A stretch of 64,000 nucleotides of DNA from Planktothrix serta PCC 8927 (lineage in GTDB: Bacteria; Cyanobacteriota; Cyanobacteriia; Cyanobacteriales; Microcoleaceae). The stretch covers positions 119,531 to 183,530 of the forward strand of contig NZ_LR734880.1 in the NCBI RefSeq assembly GCF_900010725.2. The letters are read 5' to 3'. The position numbers and the translations under genes are program-made. Each line of letters starts with the position of its first letter. Position 1 is the stretch's first letter. This document shows positions 13,521 to 43,791 of this stretch, in pieces. The notes beneath the pieces are model-generated. The model made no database searches, was not told where the DNA came from, and was given only the letters and a program-made list of their open reading frames with translations.

Positions 13521-13544
13521 AACAGGGGGCTTCGGCCCCTTGTT
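13521..13544 (+). terminator. TTCG-loop hairpin after gltB
   Basis: AACAGGGGGC and GCCCCTTGTT pair over 10 positions (one G-T wobble) around a TTCG tetraloop, 11 bp after the gltB stop codon. No T-run follows, so termination may be partial or factor-dependent. It could also stabilise the transcript end. Confidence 0.55.
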
Positions 13545-13550
13545 GGACTG

Positions 13551-14702
13551 ATGAATAGCTATATAAATGATTTTAATAGTAAGGAAAATATGGGACTTCA
13601 GGAAGAAATTGACAGCATGAGGCAAGAAATTAGAGCCGATAGATACTCGATGTCTATTGGGGAATGGATCAGTCTTTATGAAAGTGAAGAAATTGATATA
13701 CACCCTGAATTTCAAAGATTTTTCCGGTGGACGGATACTCAAAAAACTAATTTTATAGAATCTATTTTACTGGGAATACCAATTCCACCTATTTTTGTGT
13801 CTCAACGAGAAGATGGAGTTTGGGATGTTGTAGACGGTTTACAACGTTTGTCTACTATATATCAGTTTATTGGAAAATTAAAAGATGAAAATAACCAACT
13901 TATCCCTCCTTTAGTGCTTGAAGGAACTAAATATTTACCTAATCTCAATAATAAAATATGGGAAGATCCAGATGATTCGGAAAACGAAAACTGTCTGACT
14001 CAAGCTCAACGTCTTTTGATAAAAAGAGCCAAAATTGATGTCAATATTCTATTAAAAGAAAGCGATAAGGTTGCGAAATATGAATTATTTCAACGATTAA
14101 ATAATGGGGGATCTCTAGCTACTCCACAGGAGGTAAGAAACTGTATTCTTGTAATGTATAATCGTGAAATGTTTCATTGGATGAAAGGTTTAAGTCAAAA
14201 TCAATCTTTTCAAGAATGTATAGCTCTTGGTGATCGTCTTATTCATGAACAATATGATTTAGAGTTACTGCTCAGGTTTTTAGTATTCCGTAATATTGAA
14301 CAAAATGTAATGAAAGGTATAAAAAATGATTTGGGACAATTCTTGACAGAAAAGATGGTAGAAATGGCAGAGAATTCAGAGTTTAATTATGAAGAAGAAG
14401 AAAAAGCATTTAAGCAAACATTTTCAATTTTATATGAACAGATGGGAAGTGATAGTTTTCGTAGATATTCAGCTACTAAAGATAAGTTTATGGGAGGATT
14501 CTTAGTCTCTGCCTATGAAGTGATTGCTTTAGGAGTAGGTTATCATTGTGAACAGTTATCTAGCTCTAATTTCAACATAAGAGATAAAGTAAAAGAAATT
14601 TGGTCACGTCCTGAGTATAAAGAATGGTCAGGTGGAGGTACTAACGCCCAGCGAAGACTCCCGAAATTAGTTCCCTTTGGTCGCCAAATGTTTCAACCAT
14701 GA
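13551..14702 (+). CDS. DUF262 (GmrS/ParB-like) domain protein
   Basis: A 383-residue protein. Residues about 35-200 match the DUF262 fold: IDIHPEFQRFFRW, SILLGIPIPPIFV, and DGLQRLST (95-102), the DGQR-type motif of ParB/Srx-like NTPases and nucleases. The C-terminal half is helical and has no HNH (DUF1524) motif, unlike GmrSD enzymes. The ATG at 13551 lacks a ribosome binding site; an in-frame ATG at 13590, just after AAGGA, is a likely alternative start. It overlaps the HEPN gene by 4 bp (ATGA). The low GC content contrasts with gltB and gltD. Likely a defence component, with the downstream gene as effector. Confidence 0.8.
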   Translation: MNSYINDFNSKENMGLQEEIDSMRQEIRADRYSMSIGEWISLYESEEIDIHPEFQRFFRWTDTQKTNFIESILLGIPIPPIFVSQREDGVWDVVDGLQRLSTIYQFIGKLKDENNQLIPPLVLEGTKYLPNLNNKIWEDPDDSENENCLTQAQRLLIKRAKIDVNILLKESDKVAKYELFQRLNNGGSLATPQEVRNCILVMYNREMFHWMKGLSQNQSFQECIALGDRLIHEQYDLELLLRFLVFRNIEQNVMKGIKNDLGQFLTEKMVEMAENSEFNYEEEEKAFKQTFSILYEQMGSDSFRRYSATKDKFMGGFLVSAYEVIALGVGYHCEQLSSSNFNIRDKVKEIWSRPEYKEWSGGGTNAQRRLPKLVPFGRQMFQP

Positions 14703-15367
14703 AGAAAATACGGAACCCAGAGGATCTTAATGATAAGCTTTCAGAGGAACTTGTATGGAGAAAAAAAGAGCTTTCATCTTTGAAAGCCATGATTGATTTG
14801 AAATCACCTTCTCCTGATAAACGCAGAGCATTACTTCGTAGCGGAATAACGATCCTTTATGCTCATTGGGAAGGCTTTATTAAAGTAGCAGCTAATAGTT
14901 ATTTAGAATTTGTTGCTATGCAAGGACTTCCCTATAATCAGCTTTCCAATAATTTTATAGCTTTAGCAATGAAAGATCAGTTAGATCAAGCAAAAGACAC
15001 AAACAAGGCAACTATATACTGTGAAGTAGCTGATTTTTTTATAACAAAGCTGACTGAACGGAGCAGAATTAAATATGAAAATAGAATAGCCACATCTAAT
15101 CTTTCATCATCCGTTTTTAAAGAGATAGTTTTTATGCTGGGTTTAGATTACTCCTTTTATGAAACAAAAGAAGTAATAATCGATGAAAAGTTGCTAGGAA
15201 AGAGAAATAAAATAGCTCATGGTGAGTATCTTGACATAGATGAACAAGATTATGATGAGTTGCATCAACAAATAATATCAATGATTGATCATTTTCGTAA
15301 TCAAATAGATAATTGTGCAGCTACAAAGCAATATTGTTGTAATGAGGATAAATCAGGGGAAATTTAG
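14699..15367 (+). CDS. HEPN-type ribonuclease-like protein
   Basis: A 222-residue, all-helical protein with the HEPN RX4H motif RNKIAH (R169, H174). YAHWEGFIK upstream is typical of the MAE_28990/MAE_18760-type HEPN group as I remember it. HEPN proteins cleave RNA in toxin and defence systems. Its ATG overlaps the stop of the DUF262 gene (ATGA), so the two are translationally coupled. The pair sits between gltB and gltD and appears acquired. Function inferred; a regulated abortive-infection nuclease is the favoured reading. Confidence 0.78.
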   Translation: MKKIRNPEDLNDKLSEELVWRKKELSSLKAMIDLKSPSPDKRRALLRSGITILYAHWEGFIKVAANSYLEFVAMQGLPYNQLSNNFIALAMKDQLDQAKDTNKATIYCEVADFFITKLTERSRIKYENRIATSNLSSSVFKEIVFMLGLDYSFYETKEVIIDEKLLGKRNKIAHGEYLDIDEQDYDELHQQIISMIDHFRNQIDNCAATKQYCCNEDKSGEI

Positions 15368-15385
15368 TTGAATAAATATCAGGAA

Positions 15386-15439
15386 GGGCGGGTTTATCAA
15401 GATTTCTGTGAATTAACAAAGATTGTCTCGAACCCGCCC
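15386..15439. repeat. Stem-loop repeat GGGCGGGTT...AACCCGCCC
   Basis: A perfect 9-bp inverted repeat (15386-15394 and 15431-15439) with a 36-nt loop just after the HEPN gene. It resembles a cyanobacterial intergenic dispersed repeat and may end the transcript. Confidence 0.5.
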
Positions 15440-15497
15440 CTACGGATGGTTAAAATTTGATTCAATTAATTAGGATTTATATATTAATGGATTTCAG

Positions 15498-15695
15498 CTA
15501 AGATAAATTCAAAATTTGCTTAACTTCATCTAACGAAAAAGTAGGACTTTCTTGTTCTTCTTGTTGTGCTATTCTTAAATCTTGTAAATCCTGTAAATCT
15601 TCTAACAGTTCTTGAATTTTAAGAAATTCTTCACTGGGTAAAATGACAAATTCTTGACCATTTTTATTAATAAATTCAGGATGAAGTTGAATCAT
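15498..15695 (-). CDS. Phd/RelB-like antitoxin
   Basis: A 65-residue protein with FVILPSEEFLKIQELLEDL, the beta strand and helix pattern of Phd/YefM-type antitoxins, and an acidic C-terminal tail ending SLDEVKQIL that should wrap the toxin. The start is supported by GGAGAATATT before the ATG. It lies 12 bp downstream of a RelE-like gene, giving a toxin-first order. The duplicated DLQDLQDL is a small internal repeat. Confidence 0.7.
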   Translation of the reverse strand: MIQLHPEFINKNGQEFVILPSEEFLKIQELLEDLQDLQDLRIAQQEEQESPTFSLDEVKQILNLS

Positions 15696-16349: not shown

Positions 16350-16421
16350 GATTGATCTACCCCTTTCCTGATCAAAAAATCGATTATAATCATCAATTAA
16401 GCTATCTTGAAGGCAACCTCA

Positions 16422-16985
16422 ATGGTACAAACTCCATCCAAAACCATCTCTTTAGAAGAGTTTCTGAAACAACCTGAAACTAAACCCGCCAGTGAATATA
16501 TTGAGGGTCAAATTATCCAGAAATCTATGCCACAAGGAAAACATAGTACAATTCAAGGGGAACTTGTTATCGCTCTGAATGCTATTTTAAAACCTGCAAA
16601 AATTGCCCGTGCATTCCCTGAACTGCGGTGTACCTTTGGAGAACGTTCAATTGTTCCTGATGTTTCTGTTTTTACTTGGGATAGAATTCCCCGTGATGAT
16701 AATGGTGCAATTGCAAATACTTTTTTAATCGCGCCGGACTGGATGATTGAAATTTTATCCCCCGATCAAAGTCCAACAAAAGTGATTAAAAACATTCTCT
16801 ATTGTCTCAATAATCAGACTCAAATGGCTTGGTTAATCGATCCTGAAGAACAATCTATTTTTGTTTATCACTCCAAACAACAAATAGAAGTCTTTGATCA
16901 ACTGGAGTCAGAGATTCCTGTTCCCCTGTTTGCAACCGATGTTAAACTAACCGTTGGGGCGTTATTTGCTTGGCTTTTAGAGTGA
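16422..16985 (+). CDS. Uma2-family (DUF820) nuclease-like protein
   Basis: Restriction-endonuclease-like fold common in cyanobacteria. Seen are SLEEFLKQPETKPASEYIEGQ, the acidic PDVSVFTW, IEILSPDQS and WLIDPEEQSIFVY, which make up the PD-(D/E)XK-like core. The ATG at 16422 is preferred over an upstream TTG at 16407 because GAAGG lies just before it. Cellular role unknown; these genes are abundant and often associated with mobile or variable regions. Confidence 0.85.
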   Translation: MVQTPSKTISLEEFLKQPETKPASEYIEGQIIQKSMPQGKHSTIQGELVIALNAILKPAKIARAFPELRCTFGERSIVPDVSVFTWDRIPRDDNGAIANTFLIAPDWMIEILSPDQSPTKVIKNILYCLNNQTQMAWLIDPEEQSIFVYHSKQQIEVFDQLESEIPVPLFATDVKLTVGALFAWLLE

Positions 16986-21170: not shown

Positions 21171-24100
21171 ATGTTATCTTGGGATGAATTTTTACAAGAT
21201 GTTGCAGATGCACAGGGTTTAGTGGATGCCGATGAACGCACAGTATTTTTAACTCGTTTTGCTGAAAAATATTTAAAAACAAGAGTATCAAATACTTCAA
21301 TTGCTGATAAATTAGGCATCAGTAAATCTGATCTGGAACGAAAACTAGGTAAAGTTTATACTATTCTTGAAACTTCTTGCCCTGAATTGAAACCTGCAAC
21401 AAAAGGTAAAATTAAGATTCTACATAGTTTTTTAACACAAGAGTATTCTAAATATCAAAAACAAGAACAAATTCCATCTCAACTCCAAACACCAGTATCC
21501 TCAATTTCTGATATTAACTGGCATCAAATCTGTCAATCTCGCCTCAACGCCTACAAAGAACGCTTTCTCAACAACCCTTTAACAACTGGAAACCACCTCA
21601 ATGTTTATGTTCCTTTAGGGTTAGTGGAACCCAAACAAGAACAGGACAAGCGACAAAAACAGGAATTTAACCCAGAGGAGGGGTCACGGTTTTATCAATT
21701 AGCGGAAACGGAAATAACCAAAACCTATAACGAACCGAATCAATTTTTTGAAGAAGTATTACAAAAAGGAAATAGTAAAAGCAAAGGTCAAAAAATCGCA
21801 ATTATTGGCGAACCTGGGGCGGGAAAAACAACGTTATTATATCAAATTGCCCAATGGATTTTATATAAAGAGTTAGGTTATCCGATTTTAATTCGGTTGG
21901 CGGATGTTGATAAACCATTACTAGAATATTTAACTCAAGATTGGTTACGTTATGCGACTAAAAGCACAGGGGAAGTTTCACCGGAATGGGTTTCTGCATT
22001 TGAACAATTAAGGCGGGGGGATAAGGTTTGGTTACTCCTCGATGCTATTGATGAAATGGGGATAATGTCACCTTTAGCGGATATTAATCAACAGTTAGCG
22101 AACGAATTGCATGGGTTACGGGTGGTGTTAACCTGTCGGTTGAATGTTTGGGAGGGGGAGAAAAACGCTTTAAGGGGTTTTGATGTTTATCGCAATTTAG
22201 ATTTTAATTCCCAACAGATTCAGGATTTTATTGAACAATGGTTTAAGGATAAAACCCAGAGTCAGGAGTTATTAAAACAGTTAAAAGAACCCAACAAAAC
22301 CCGCATTAATGATTTAATTAAAAATCCCCTGCGGTTAGCATTATTATGTCGGACTTGGAAACGGGGGCAAAAATTACCCGAAACCCAAGCCGGACTGTAT
22401 CAACGGTTGGTTAATAGTCATTATCAATGGAAGGATGAACACAAACCGTTTCAAATTCCTGAAGATGTGCAAGAATATCTCCATAAACAGTTAGGAAAAT
22501 TAGCGAAAACCGCGATAAACCGTGAACAATATCGGTTTCGTTTAGAGGAAAAATTCCTTGAACAGTATTTAGGAAAACGGCATCCGTCAAATTCTCAGCC
22601 GAAGTCTCTATTTGATTGGGCGTTAAAATTAGGATGGTTAAATTGGGTGGGGTTAGCATCCGTTGAGGAAAGGGATTCTGATCAAGCGGTTTATGCGTTT
22701 TTCCATCCCACGTTTCAGGAATATTTTGCAGCTTTAGCGATTAAGGATTGGGATTATTTCTTACCTCGAAATCATGTCAATTGTCCGATGGAGGGGAAAG
22801 AGTATCGCATTTTTCAACCCCAATGGAAACAGGTAATTTTATTATGGTTGGGGCGGGATGATGTGGAGATAGAAGAGAAAGAGGCGTTTATTCAGAAGTT
22901 AGTTAGTTTTGATGATGGGTGTGGAGATAGTAATTTTTATGGGAATCGTACCTATTTTTTAGCTGCTGCGGGAATTAATGAGTTTAAACAATGCAGTTTA
23001 TCGGATGAAATTGTAAAACAGATTGTTCAATGGGGTTTTGGTTATTTTGATATTGAGAAGCAAAAATGGATAACTTTTATTGATCCACTTGAGGAAGGTT
23101 CAATAACAGTATTACCAGAGACAATTAGAGAAAAAGCGATCGCTAATTTAATTCAAGTCTTAGAAACTACTGAGAATGAATCTACTCGCAGGAGGGTTGC
23201 CTATAGTTTAGGGGATATTGCTGGTAGAAATGAGTTAGCAATACGAGAGTTAATTCGGGTCTTAAAAATCACTGAGAATGGATTTACTTACAGGTCGTTA
23301 GCCGAGAGTTTAGGGGAAATTGCCGTTGGAAATGAGTTAGCAATAGGGGAGTTAATTCGGGTATTAAAAACCACTGAGAATGAAGAGAATTGCTGGAGGG
23401 TTGCCGAGAGTTTAAGCGAAATTGCCGTTGGAAATGAGTTAGCAATAGGGGAGTTGATTCGGGTATTAGAAACCACTGAATCTGAATCTACTCGCAGGAT
23501 AGTTGCCTATAGTTTAGGGGAAATTGCCGTTGGAAATGAGTTAGCAAAAAAGGAGTTAATTCGGGTATTACAAACCACTCAATCTGAAAATAATCGCCAG
23601 TTATTTGCCTGGAAATTAGGGAAAATTAACCCTGGAAATGAGTTAGCAAGAAAGGAGTTGATTCGGGTATTACAAACCACTCAATCTGAAAATAATCGCA
23701 GGATAGTTGCCTCTATTTTAGGCGAAATTAACCCTGGAAATGAGTTAGCAATAAGGGAGTTAATTCGGATCTTAGAAACCACTCAATCTGAAAATAATCG
23801 CAGCATTGTTGCCTGGAGTTTAGGGGAAATTGCCGTTGGAAATGAGTTAGCAATAAGGGAGTTAATTCGGATCTTAAAAACCACTCAATCTGAAAATAAT
23901 CGCAGGATAGTTGCCTCTATTTTAGAAAAAATTTCCATTGGAAATGATTTAACAATAGGGGTATTAACTCAGGTTTTAGAAATTACTAATGATGAAGAAA
24001 CTCGCAGCAAGGTTGCCTATAGTTTAGGGGAAATTGCTGTTAGAAATGAGTTAGCAATAGAGGCGTTAATTCAGATCTTAGAAACCACTGAAAATGAAGA

Positions 24101-24758
24101 GACTTGCAGGAGAATTGCCAAGATTTTAGGAAAAATTGCCGTTGGAAATGAGTTAGCAAGAGGAGCATTAATTCGGATCTTAGAAACCACTAAAAATGAA
24201 GAGACTCAGTGGATTTTTGCCGGGAGTTTAGGAGAAATTGACCCTGGAAATAAGTTAGCAAGAAGGGCATTAATTCGGATTTTGGAAACTACTGAGTCTG
24301 AATCTAATCGTTGGATTGTTGCTTATAGTTTAGGGGAAATTTACCCTGGAAATAAGTTAGCGATAGGGACGTTAATTCAGGTCTTAGAAACCACTGAGTC
24401 TGAAAATACTCGCTGGACAGTTACCAAGAGTTTAGAGAAAATTGCCGTTGGAAATGAGTTAGCAATAAAGGCGTTAATTCAGGTCTTAGAAACTACTGAG
24501 AAGGAATCTACTCGCAGGACGGCTACCGAGAGTTTAGAGAAAATAATCCAAACAGAAGAACAATATACAGATGTGGTTTTTGCCCTCAAACATAACCTAA
24601 CTAATAAAGTTCTCAACAATAATTTTGATCTCTATATAAAATGCTGCGATGTTCTCTGGAAATGCGCCCAAAATCTACCTTATCCCAAATTTTATCAAGC
24701 ATGGCATCACAACACCCTGACCCCCAATTCTAATAATAACAGTTGTCATTCTGAGTGA
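21171..24758 (+). CDS. NACHT STAND NTPase with C-terminal HEAT repeats
   Basis: A 1195-residue NLR-like protein. Residues 1-95 are an unrecognised helical domain with a helix-turn-helix flavour (TSIADKLGISKSDLERKLGK). The NACHT NTPase follows: Walker A GEPGAGKTT (213-221), Walker B WLLLDAIDE (287-295), and winged-helix parts (to about 540). A linker precedes about 14 tandem 34-residue HEAT-like units (about 656-1130; pattern LIRVLETTESE...SLGEIAVGNELA). No known nuclease or protease effector is visible. Prokaryotic STAND proteins often sense phage proteins with such repeats and trigger cell death. The last residues (SCHSE) come from a dispersed repeat at 24750-24850. Confidence 0.88.
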   Translation: MLSWDEFLQDVADAQGLVDADERTVFLTRFAEKYLKTRVSNTSIADKLGISKSDLERKLGKVYTILETSCPELKPATKGKIKILHSFLTQEYSKYQKQEQIPSQLQTPVSSISDINWHQICQSRLNAYKERFLNNPLTTGNHLNVYVPLGLVEPKQEQDKRQKQEFNPEEGSRFYQLAETEITKTYNEPNQFFEEVLQKGNSKSKGQKIAIIGEPGAGKTTLLYQIAQWILYKELGYPILIRLADVDKPLLEYLTQDWLRYATKSTGEVSPEWVSAFEQLRRGDKVWLLLDAIDEMGIMSPLADINQQLANELHGLRVVLTCRLNVWEGEKNALRGFDVYRNLDFNSQQIQDFIEQWFKDKTQSQELLKQLKEPNKTRINDLIKNPLRLALLCRTWKRGQKLPETQAGLYQRLVNSHYQWKDEHKPFQIPEDVQEYLHKQLGKLAKTAINREQYRFRLEEKFLEQYLGKRHPSNSQPKSLFDWALKLGWLNWVGLASVEERDSDQAVYAFFHPTFQEYFAALAIKDWDYFLPRNHVNCPMEGKEYRIFQPQWKQVILLWLGRDDVEIEEKEAFIQKLVSFDDGCGDSNFYGNRTYFLAAAGINEFKQCSLSDEIVKQIVQWGFGYFDIEKQKWITFIDPLEEGSITVLPETIREKAIANLIQVLETTENESTRRRVAYSLGDIAGRNELAIRELIRVLKITENGFTYRSLAESLGEIAVGNELAIGELIRVLKTTENEENCWRVAESLSEIAVGNELAIGELIRVLETTESESTRRIVAYSLGEIAVGNELAKKELIRVLQTTQSENNRQLFAWKLGKINPGNELARKELIRVLQTTQSENNRRIVASILGEINPGNELAIRELIRILETTQSENNRSIVAWSLGEIAVGNELAIRELIRILKTTQSENNRRIVASILEKISIGNDLTIGVLTQVLEITNDEETRSKVAYSLGEIAVRNELAIEALIQILETTENEETCRRIAKILGKIAVGNELARGALIRILETTKNEETQWIFAGSLGEIDPGNKLARRALIRILETTESESNRWIVAYSLGEIYPGNKLAIGTLIQVLETTESENTRWTVTKSLEKIAVGNELAIKALIQVLETTEKESTRRTATESLEKIIQTEEQYTDVVFALKHNLTNKVLNNNFDLYIKCCDVLWKCAQNLPYPKFYQAWHHNTLTPNSNNNSCHSE
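23146..24574. repeat. 102-bp intragenic tandem repeats (HEAT units)
   Basis: Fourteen consecutive 102-bp units carry GGAAATGAGTTAGCA (with variants) once per unit. Several neighbours are almost identical, such as units 5-8 with ACCACTCAATCTGAAAATAA. Variation is concentrated at a few codons per unit, as in a sensor surface that is reshaped by unit shuffling. Confidence 0.85.
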
Positions 24759-41009: not shown

Positions 41010-41672
41010 CTATATTACAATATTGATGTGCAATAGCTTCTTTTCAGCATCAGTTATAGTTTCAGAAAAAAGATTTTGAGAACTGGGAAATTTATCGGTA
41101 AATTTTTTAAATGCTGTATTATAAAAACTACGCAAAATCAAAGACATGAAGGTAAGAGGTGTAATTGGAGAAGAAACAGGTATCCTACAGTTTTTGAATT
41201 GCCCTAGAGTTAAATGGCATTTAGGATGGTCTATTTCTTGATAATTTTTAGGATCATAATCAAGTCTAATGGGTACAGGTAAAATATTTTTAGCTATTAT
41301 ATCGGCATAAATTTCATCCATTTCATACATTTCAGATTCGTTTTGAAATGCCTCTAAGTTAGGGGATGGAAAAAACGCAAGACGATGTGAAATTAAACTA
41401 GAATTTTCATAAGTATAAAGAAATTGTATTAAAGCCCCATCAATCATTTTTATATTATAGTTTTTATTTTTATTTAGTTCGTTATATATTTCTGCATATT
41501 CAACATTTTTTAATGCTATGGAAATATCTTGCATACCCGAATATGCAATTTTATAAATGTTATTAGGAAATCGTACACATGAAGGAAAATTCTGCTCCTC
41601 TGATAAACCAGTTTCTATTAATTGTGTCGTTAAAGTTTCAATTTCTTTATAAATAACTTGAGAACTAATCAT
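41010..41672 (-). CDS. DUF2290-like protein, partner of the helicase
   Basis: A 220-residue soluble protein. The segment HPKCHLTLGQFKNCRIPVSS followed by PLTFMSLILRSFYN matches what I remember of the DUF2290 family; the rest is unrecognised. No known catalytic motif can be pointed to with confidence; conserved His, Asp and Arg residues are around 150-170 (VPIRLDYDP). Its ATG overlaps the helicase stop by 8 bp, so it is translationally coupled. Low GC content. Likely an accessory part of a nucleic-acid-targeting defence system. Confidence 0.65.
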   Translation of the reverse strand: MISSQVIYKEIETLTTQLIETGLSEEQNFPSCVRFPNNIYKIAYSGMQDISIALKNVEYAEIYNELNKNKNYNIKMIDGALIQFLYTYENSSLISHRLAFFPSPNLEAFQNESEMYEMDEIYADIIAKNILPVPIRLDYDPKNYQEIDHPKCHLTLGQFKNCRIPVSSPITPLTFMSLILRSFYNTAFKKFTDKFPSSQNLFSETITDAEKKLLHINIVI

Positions 41673-43791
41673 TGTTAATTAAAATATCTTTTAAAGTATC
41701 TAACATTTCTGGTGGCAAATCTTCTTTTTGAATCTCACCTCGCTGCAAATCTTCAATTATTTCTTGTAAACTATTTCTGGTTTTAGCTATTTTTTCACGT
41801 CCTTTGGTACTCATATCTCTATTAATCAAATTCATTTTTCTACGTTCTTCTTCAGAAGGATAGGTAAATTCAAGAGCAAAATTTTTATTCTTGACTCTGT
41901 TAAATTCATCTTCTAATCCCACCATTAAAGAACCATAACCTAAAACTCTTAACCACGCTTTACTTCTGGTCATTGCTGTAAATAAGATGTTTCTTTTTCT
42001 GGCAAGTTCTGAACCAGAATAGCATTCATGAGCATCTATGAAATAAATCATAGCAGCTTCATTGCCTTTAGCTCTGTTGATACTCGTAAAAGTAATAGCT
42101 TCTTCACTAAAGAATTCATCTGGTTGAGTGGTAACACCAGCTAAGTTAGAGTTTATACGCTTCTCAAAAAGTAAAGCTCTAATTTTCCCTACCGCCGTTT
42201 TAGTCGTTCGTGGGTTAGAATGAATAACCATTATATCATCATACTTTAACTCATCTTCCGTTATATTTTTTTCTATTTGCTCCACTAACCACGTAATTTG
42301 TTCTTCGTTAGTTCTGAAAGTTTTAAAAATTATTAAATCATCAATCGGTGAATGAGATTCTAAAAATTTTGGACTTGTATTGCTAGTCCTCGAAAGTTTT
42401 ACAAACTGTCCATCTTCTAGCTTGCCCTCCTTAACTTCATAACCAATATCTCTCCATAATCCAGCATATTCAAACATTTGGATTAGCCCTTCAGTTCTGT
42501 AAATACCAAACCCTAAAGCATGAGCAGATGTTAAAATGGGGCGAGAGTTTCTATAACATTTTTCTAGTATAATATCTTGTTTGGGTTCTCCTTGGATATT
42601 CTGAAGTTGAACAAAGGGTTTACCATGAACATTTTTTCCAAAGATATCTTCTGGTGCTTCCATTGTTTTCTTATTAAGGCTTTGTAGCTCATCATAAGCA
42701 TAGACTAATCGTTTCGGATTTTTCAAGATTTTATAGCAAAGCTGTAAAAAGTATTTAGAAAAATCTTGAGCTTCATCTATTAGTATTGCATCATAATACT
42801 GCTCAAAATTTTTTATTTTTATTAGAGCTTCATAACAAACAGCATCAAATTCTTGACCTGATTGATTTGTTATTATCATTCTTGCCGAACTGAAATCTCT
42901 ATATTCAATATTATGTTTTTTACAAATTTCATAATAGATTCCTTCTATAGAAGGGCTACCCCAGGCATGAATAATTTTAACTTTATCCCAGTCTGGTTCT
43001 TCATTTATATGTTCAATAGTAAATGTATTAATTAATTGCTTAAACTGAGCTTTTAGAGAACGAGTATTAAAAGTGACTGCAATATTCCAATCAGGGTGTT
43101 TTGCATGAAGATAGGCAACTTTAAGAGCAAGAACTATCGTTTTACCTGAGCCAGCAAGACCTCTAATTCTCTGTACACCTTCAACAGTTTCAATAACAGC
43201 AGCACTTTGGTTTCTATCTAAGTTAGCGATAGAATCTTCCAATTTCTGAAGTTTTGCACCTTTAGAGTTTTCATTTTTAATATAAGTACGATTTTTCTTT
43301 TTCCGTATAGTTGTTATAGCTTGTATAACCGAGTTGAGTTTTTCAAAGTATTCTTGATTTTCCCAAATTTGAGAATTTAAGTATGTGTTAAGCTCTGACT
43401 CATTCAAAATGATTGGATAATCTTGATTTACACTATCAGGTTTACTACTTAAAGCTGGTGCAAAAGTAGTAACTCCAATTTCTACCATAAGCTTCCTTTT
43501 ATGAGTAAGAGACTTATGTTGAAGTAGCTTTGCTTGAACTTTAGTAATACTCTCATCTTGAACTTCTTCTATATTTATGTTGATGTTATTACCTTCAATA
43601 ATATTAAAAATTACAATACCGTGTTGTTTAGATACTAGGAGAGCATCAATTTGATAACCTCCCTCAGAAGTACCTATAATTGGGTATCCGAGATATAAAG
43701 TCCCATCAATATCGGATTTGTTTTCAAAGTATTCAGCCAATCTCTTGGATGAGACTGGTTTATCTACATCACCTCGAATAACGTTAACCAT
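41665..43791 (-). CDS. Superfamily 1 helicase with degenerate NERD-like N-terminus
   Basis: A 708-residue UvrD/Rep-type helicase. Residues about 15-70 resemble a NERD nuclease (GGYQIDALLVSKQHGIVIFN, D49), but the usual E-x-K after it is replaced (FNIIEG), so nuclease activity is doubtful. Helicase motifs: Q-motif LDRNQSAAV, Walker A GLAGSGKT (211-218), Walker B ILIDEAQDF (336-344), YAYDELQSL, FTSINRAKGNEA and LFTAMTRSK near the C-terminus. It probably unwinds DNA. It is coupled to a DUF2290-like gene. Low GC content and isolation between pgk and a toxin module suggest a small defence island. Confidence 0.85.
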   Translation of the reverse strand: MVNVIRGDVDKPVSSKRLAEYFENKSDIDGTLYLGYPIIGTSEGGYQIDALLVSKQHGIVIFNIIEGNNININIEEVQDESITKVQAKLLQHKSLTHKRKLMVEIGVTTFAPALSSKPDSVNQDYPIILNESELNTYLNSQIWENQEYFEKLNSVIQAITTIRKKKNRTYIKNENSKGAKLQKLEDSIANLDRNQSAAVIETVEGVQRIRGLAGSGKTIVLALKVAYLHAKHPDWNIAVTFNTRSLKAQFKQLINTFTIEHINEEPDWDKVKIIHAWGSPSIEGIYYEICKKHNIEYRDFSSARMIITNQSGQEFDAVCYEALIKIKNFEQYYDAILIDEAQDFSKYFLQLCYKILKNPKRLVYAYDELQSLNKKTMEAPEDIFGKNVHGKPFVQLQNIQGEPKQDIILEKCYRNSRPILTSAHALGFGIYRTEGLIQMFEYAGLWRDIGYEVKEGKLEDGQFVKLSRTSNTSPKFLESHSPIDDLIIFKTFRTNEEQITWLVEQIEKNITEDELKYDDIMVIHSNPRTTKTAVGKIRALLFEKRINSNLAGVTTQPDEFFSEEAITFTSINRAKGNEAAMIYFIDAHECYSGSELARKRNILFTAMTRSKAWLRVLGYGSLMVGLEDEFNRVKNKNFALEFTYPSEEERRKMNLINRDMSTKGREKIAKTRNSLQEIIEDLQRGEIQKEDLPPEMLDTLKDILINND

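Follow-up and report, generated by a model that had tools for sequence, protein, structure and literature searches.

Two overlapping genes, encoding a DUF262 protein and a HEPN protein, lie in the 64,000 nucleotides of Planktothrix serta PCC 8927 analysed here (contig NZ_LR734880.1, positions 119,531 to 183,530 of the forward strand; the whole stretch is referred to as the window), and we consider that this operon is probably an antiphage switch in which a DUF262 sensor releases its partner, a HEPN RNase. The DUF262 protein would likely bind a nucleotide, sense invading and perhaps modified DNA, or a signal of infection, and then release or license the HEPN RNase, which would cleave RNA and bring the infected cell to a halt. 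The job that GmrSD, BrxU and SspE each perform within a single chain would here be divided in trans between a single-domain DUF262 protein and a HEPN RNase, the latter in place of the HNH DNase. We infer, for the branch represented by the window, a physical complex of the two proteins, nucleotide hydrolysis, a trigger, RNase activity, growth arrest and phage defence, and the defence role can be soundly argued by likeness to the known system PD-T4-2. The elements of the pair are the following:

13551 to 14702, plus strand: DUF262 gene (GmrSD_N, ParB/sulfiredoxin-like), 383 amino acids (aa), from the list of open reading frames (ORFs) and Pfam; its structure model aligns along BrxU residues 1-412.
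14699 to 15367, plus strand: HEPN gene (MAE_28990 type), 222 aa, from the ORF list and Pfam; predicted HEPN-like fold.
14699 to 14702, plus strand: ATGA stop/start overlap of the two genes; with mechanically assigned starts, the same 4-base overlap occurs at 54 of the 76 collected loci that have a separate HEPN ORF.
13833 to 13847, plus strand: D95-G-L-Q-R99, putative nucleoside triphosphate (NTP)-binding motif; D95, G96, Q98 and R99 are invariant in 44/44 aligned homologues.
15203 to 15220, plus strand: R169-N-K-I-A-H174, HEPN RX4-6H motif; R169, H174 and G175 are invariant in 49/49 aligned homologues.

A preliminary description of this DNA had reported both genes with their ATGA overlap, and the motifs DGLQR (D95, Q98) and RNKIAH (R169, H174); the ORFs at 13551-14702 and 14699-15367 confirm the former, and the residue numbers proved exact. 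Translation of the DUF262 gene probably starts at 13590 (370 aa) rather than at 13551, because its nearest homologues in the database measure 367-371 aa and because the sister locus L186, of the relative G008, keeps ATGGGACTTCAGG but has the upstream ATG in another frame. Compared with the G008 pair, the ratio of nonsynonymous to synonymous substitution rates is about 0.36 for DUF262 and HEPN alike by the NG86 method and about 0.23 for DUF262 by YN00, which returned no value for HEPN; both genes look to be under purifying selection. A consensus scan found no promoter ahead of the pair, other promoter types not having been sought.

In Pfam, the DUF262 protein matches PF03235 (GmrSD_N) alone (residues 42-200, 4.9e-25, 89.3 bits vs a cut-off of 33.2), and the HEPN protein matches the HEPN families PF18737 (HEPN_MAE_28990; 1.7e-43, 149.7 bits vs a curated cut-off of 26.8) and PF18735 (1.5e-40), together with two sub-threshold chance matches. 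No HNH domain was found in either protein by Pfam at E up to 1, in agreement with the earlier observation that none was visible. The computed structure of the DUF262 protein resembles BrxU and SspE minus their HNH part, and its sequence profile recovered three DUF262 entries among solved structures (E 0.0007-0.006). The model of the HEPN protein appears to adopt a HEPN-like fold; since plain Foldseek returned nothing at E 0.001 or better, this call rests on a separate structure comparison, and the HEPN sequence profile matched only SPT6 chains (E 0.15) among solved structures. The resemblance to BrxU and SspE could also fit a split system akin to type IV restriction, in which DUF262 would both read a DNA modification and nick the DNA, leaving HEPN a structural role or that of a reserve RNase, and the accessible part of a 2013 survey of HEPN families (PMC3710099) does term the ParB-type partner a nuclease. 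Yet along the 383 aa Pfam detects no nuclease domain, HNH or other, and R169 and H174 are invariant in all 49 HEPN homologues and therefore fit a catalytic RNase rather than a structural subunit; we regard this explanation as improbable.

The linkage of the two genes was followed from either side. On the DUF262 side, where contigs were scanned with a DUF262 alignment, the position directly downstream of DUF262 was occupied, in the best 80 of 265 loci, by a HEPN ORF in 76, an in-frame fusion in one (L051) and a HEPN remnant in three (L041, L052 and L065). The hosts, many of them metagenome-assembled records, comprise cyanobacteria, Thermodesulfobacteriota, Pseudomonadota, Bacteroidota, Chloroflexota, a Treponema, Ca. 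Methanoperedens and a nanoarchaeote. The single 585-aa frame of L051 may be a frameshift and was not used as evidence of contact; a search with its residues 330-580 revealed no second fusion among the matches listed, 117 proteins of 349-379 aa with PF03235 alone. On the HEPN side, 31 of 60 genomes of the order carried PF18737, giving 57 listed HEPN matches (G016 and G049 contribute two each for a single gene). A same-strand PF03235 match lay within 3 kb upstream in 50 of the 57, counting PF03235 among the matches listed, and four of the other seven were also paired when the DNA was read, one of them to a DUF262 gene cut off by a contig edge so that its end alone remains, so that 54/57 stand beside a DUF262 gene or piece; the three unpaired are two beside ParA-like genes and one 34-residue piece. 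The preliminary description had suggested a check on whether order and overlap are conserved, and held that the idea would be refuted if the families occurred mostly apart. HEPN lies directly downstream in 76/80 and overlaps by four bases in 54/76, and the families are linked in 80/80 of the best DUF262 loci, the fusion and the remnants included, and in 54/57 HEPN matches, so this refutation did not come about.

Length separates the DUF262 proteins that are linked to HEPN: among 150 listed matches, 48 of the 75 shorter than 450 aa are linked and none of the 75 longer ones, which presumably carry their own nuclease. The 27 short unlinked proteins include eight with Menshen-like ATPase partners, one with a PD-T4-2-like small HEPN partner (L251), one with a 205-aa neighbour containing RNAIAH and matching no Pfam family (L274), two in which a DUF262 protein of about 420 aa is followed by a separate 90-aa HNH protein, as in a split GmrSD (L256, 1670-3191; L264, 1664-3213), and one split GmrSD (L248; GmrSD_C, 2.3e-8); no partner was recognised in the neighbourhoods of the other 14. 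DUF262 stands upstream in 6/6 viral contigs found through HEPN. In viral contigs found through DUF262, the next ORF matches the HEPN profile (E 0.05) in 38/45, near-copies included and some matches weak, and both proteins cover most of stricter profiles in 26/45. Matches occur in 9 of 72,556 plasmid records, seven with DUF262 annotated beneath the match, and in 1 of 50,697 phage records, as a partial match.

The two genes are also inherited together. A set of 79 pairs was used, namely 76 loci, the window and two paralogues, with three that have a short HEPN dropped. DUF262 and HEPN distances correlate at 0.85 (74 pairs, paralogues excluded) and at 0.93 with the paralogues, against largest values of 0.26 and 0.60, respectively, in 2000 permutations of the pairing, and HEPN diverges about 1.6 times faster than DUF262. 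The correlation shows inheritance as a unit, not contact between the proteins; together with the neighbourhoods on both sides, it strongly supports the DUF262-HEPN coupling first proposed in the preliminary description.

Such a strict pairing is compatible as well with a toxin-antitoxin system (type II/VII), the main rival to the switch. Here HEPN would be a constitutively active RNase toxin that DUF262 restrains or modifies, as MNT does HepT, and any defence would be a by-product of antitoxin loss. In MNT/HEPN pairs, according to the portions of the literature available, the toxin is modified by the antitoxin. DUF262 is encoded first, and each of the 56 HEPN matches (of 57) with examined surroundings has a DUF262 gene or piece, or else a ParA-like gene, beside it. 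Among the 80 DUF262-anchored loci, both genes are intact in 74, HEPN alone is broken in five, both are broken in one and DUF262 alone in none, as if a free HEPN were not tolerated; this pattern is suggestive but biased, and we rejected it as proof because the loci were found through DUF262, which selects for an intact DUF262. In the HEPN-anchored set, a DUF262 frame interrupted by an in-frame stop neighbours a stop-free HEPN frame at G035:C62 (some apparent internal stops of that set fall at natural gene ends, as in C18, and were left uncounted), and mini-DUF262 proteins that have lost motif residues adjoin full-length HEPN genes. In the accessible text of the sources, moreover, the DUF262 portion of SspE serves to activate a nuclease, as is proposed for that of BrxU, and not to neutralise a toxin. 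We therefore hold toxin-antitoxin behaviour to be a possible but rather unlikely account, and keep the infection-triggered switch as the preferred one.

Two further features describe the place where the pair resides:

13524 to 13540, no strand assigned: GC hairpin behind gltB, with the pair starting just 3' of it; similar to hairpins in G008 and, before a different HEPN gene, in G002.
15368 to 15635, no strand assigned: flank; homology to the empty site of G007 (L188) starts at the first base past the HEPN stop.

In the window, gltB lies upstream of the pair, and an 81-aa ORF, a Uma2-family gene (16407-16985, plus strand; PF05685, 2.4e-38) and gltD (from 17323) lie downstream, and to that extent the placement between gltB and gltD given in the preliminary description is right. 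The end of gltB was located in nine of ten genus genomes searched, the window's own counted, and the 8.5-9 kb or so behind it was taken from the eight relatives; blastn found no gltD match within this distance in 8/8, so the pair does not mark an insertion into a gltBD operon shared across the genus, and the setting is incidental. The pair occupies the site in two of the nine genomes, the other being G008, where the DNA is 94% identical. The site of G007 is empty and, because it is without the hairpin, places only the right edge of the insertion, and in G002 (L183, 602-1807) a like hairpin is followed by a 401-aa Swt1-type HEPN protein (4.1e-7) that replaces the pair; the remaining five relatives have other ORFs behind gltB. 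This 401-aa protein matches the PADLOC model PDC-M34B at 1.6e-11. From these comparisons, the spot behind gltB is a small variable site that received different HEPN genes.

A solitary pair between housekeeping genes might instead suggest an RNA-processing or stress module of the cyanobacterium with no part in defence, and a fixed locus by pheS in nine Nostocales genomes could be read likewise. This seems to us very unlikely: the pair is at the gltB site in only 2/9 genus genomes, is scattered across distant phyla, occurs on plasmids and viral contigs, and has five further counterparts in the same genome. That genome contains nine PF03235 and seven PF18737 matches, which make up six DUF262-HEPN pairs (on contigs C60, the window's, C24, C57, C58, C18 and C56, the last with a 172-aa mini-DUF262), two long DUF262 proteins (C17 and C57), a ParA-like gene, recognised by eye, with HEPN (C35), and a complete Menshen system on C62 (L021, 4861-8025; NsnA/NsnB/NsnC, 397/422/295 bits). 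The five other paired HEPN proteins share 16-29% identity with that of the window. The C18 HEPN weakly matches PADLOC PD-T4-2_B (3.5e-5), and its profile comparison with the window HEPN family aligned just 23 columns, around the motif, with a probability of 20%.

Mini-DUF262 proteins of 172-187 aa, with the ParB-like half only, adjoin HEPN genes of about 245 aa in L018 (8304-9602), L276 (2670-4037) and L278 (2368-3704), and two of these three have lost DGxQR motif residues. ParA/Soj-like genes, again identified by eye, precede HEPN genes in L023 (6354-8148) and L279 (1569-3449), a two-gene arrangement for which the 2013 survey (PMC3710099), in the section we could access, suggests a toxin-antitoxin role.

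The neighbours of the 76 loci comprised 137 genes; on either side the closest one of 90-900 aa was taken, and longer ones were dropped. Among the Pfam families displayed (25 of 107) were Uma2 (10), pheS (9), N6_N4 methylase (3), AAA_21 (3) and Mrr (2), Uma2 being the commonest of those displayed (10/137); these are raw counts with no control set, and no enrichment is claimed. The nine Nostocales loci have in common an upstream 330-aa gene with 90-96% identity to that of L027, which we took as the nine pheS. PADLOC matches of neighbours included helicase-type models common to housekeeping proteins and, in three, type II methyltransferases. Elsewhere in the window there is a complete Helicase + DUF2290 defence pair (41010-43791, minus strand; PADLOC, 1226 bits for the helicase and 350 bits for DUF2290) and a 1195-aa NACHT/STAND protein (21171-24758, plus strand) whose HEAT repeats are encoded by a 102-base tandem array and which has no PADLOC match at 1e-6.

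DUF262 is best known from type IV restriction enzymes that cut DNA, in which it is the sensor half. If the branch works as we propose, the same sensor widely switches on an RNase, which would connect abortive infection with restriction that depends on modification. The branch is common, with five sister pairs in this genome, and such parallel pairs offer a way to test the specificity of the trigger. More tentatively, single-domain DUF262 proteins could be a plug-in, NTP-gated infection sensor, coupled in trans, in related clades, to at least four kinds of HEPN RNase, to the Menshen ATPase and to small HNH nucleases, with the window branch, a large one found from cyanobacteria to archaea whose HEPN has no PADLOC model, turning the sensing of modified DNA into RNA destruction. 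Were this so, six HEPN pairs plus Menshen in one filamentous cyanobacterium would be a panel for the study of sensor recognition.

The relation to known systems was examined in a tree of 98 single-domain DUF262 proteins, 330-480 aa matches from the collected loci and not a census. Menshen-type proteins (n = 10) form their own clade (support 100/99) and HNH-labelled ones (n = 3; L257 carries its HNH label without a Pfam check) a separate one (100/100). The HEPN-linked proteins split over several supported clades; that of the window (100/99) includes the C24 type, and the PD-T4-2-like clade (C18, L251), which also has three proteins without a recognised partner, stands apart from it. Labels were given by rule and by hand, and L239 and L243, which have broken window-type HEPN partners, are mislabelled PD-T4-2-like, as is L260 mislabelled HEPN354.

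The preliminary description had suggested a distinct architecture, but DUF262 paired with HEPN is already known, because it appears in the 2013 survey and in PD-T4-2; of its interpretation, the coupling and, as inference, the defence role stand, the distinctness of the architecture does not, and the gltB-gltD setting is incidental. In the accessible text of that survey (Anantharaman et al., 2013; PMC3710099), MAE_28990 HEPN shares an operon with DNA methylase genes and a ParB nuclease, and ParB is likewise the operon partner of RiboL-PSP-HEPN. The window shares the HEPN family and the ParB-type (DUF262) operon partner, but has gltB, the 81-aa ORF, Uma2 and gltD in place of DNA methylase genes. 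No experiment on the MAE_28990/ParB operon was found in that portion of the survey, and we found no published test of the MAE_28990-DUF262 branch itself in a literature search that was thin on subscription journals; further work on the subject, consulted in part, includes PMC12839542, PMC11811056 and PMC13092281. PD-T4-2, whose domains include DUF262 and HEPN (PMC10952713, in part), protects E. coli, both its own strain and K-12, from T4, according to the available text of PMC9519451. The window DUF262 matches PD-T4-2_A (1.7e-31, 107.6 bits), second to NsnA; in contrast, the 222-aa PF18737 HEPN matches no PADLOC-DB 2.0.0 family at E 10, PD-T4-2_B included, and the DUF262 falls in another supported clade, as judged by the PADLOC models and by PD-T4-2-like pairs of the same order.

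With GmrSD and BrxU the window protein appears to share the DUF262 fold with DGxQR, but membership of GmrSD takes a DUF1524/HNH domain (GmrD), fused or adjacent, and Pfam found none in the pair, in which DUF262 is partnered by a HEPN protein with a gene of its own. SspE links recognition to GTP hydrolysis and nuclease release (PMC13251355, in the part available) and, unlike the window protein, has its HNH nuclease in the same chain and phosphorothioate (PT)-modification partners, SspABCD, none of which was seen next to the window pair. Menshen likewise has a single-domain DUF262, and the window protein matches NsnA at 8.8e-61 (204 bits, where the Menshen protein of this genome scores 397), but its partners are an ATPase (NsnB) and NsnC instead of a HEPN without PADLOC match. 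Identity with Menshen from the NsnA match alone was rejected, because NsnB and NsnC are absent and the full system is on C62. By its place in the tree, the window pair is thus a branch apart from the PD-T4-2-like and Menshen DUF262 clades.
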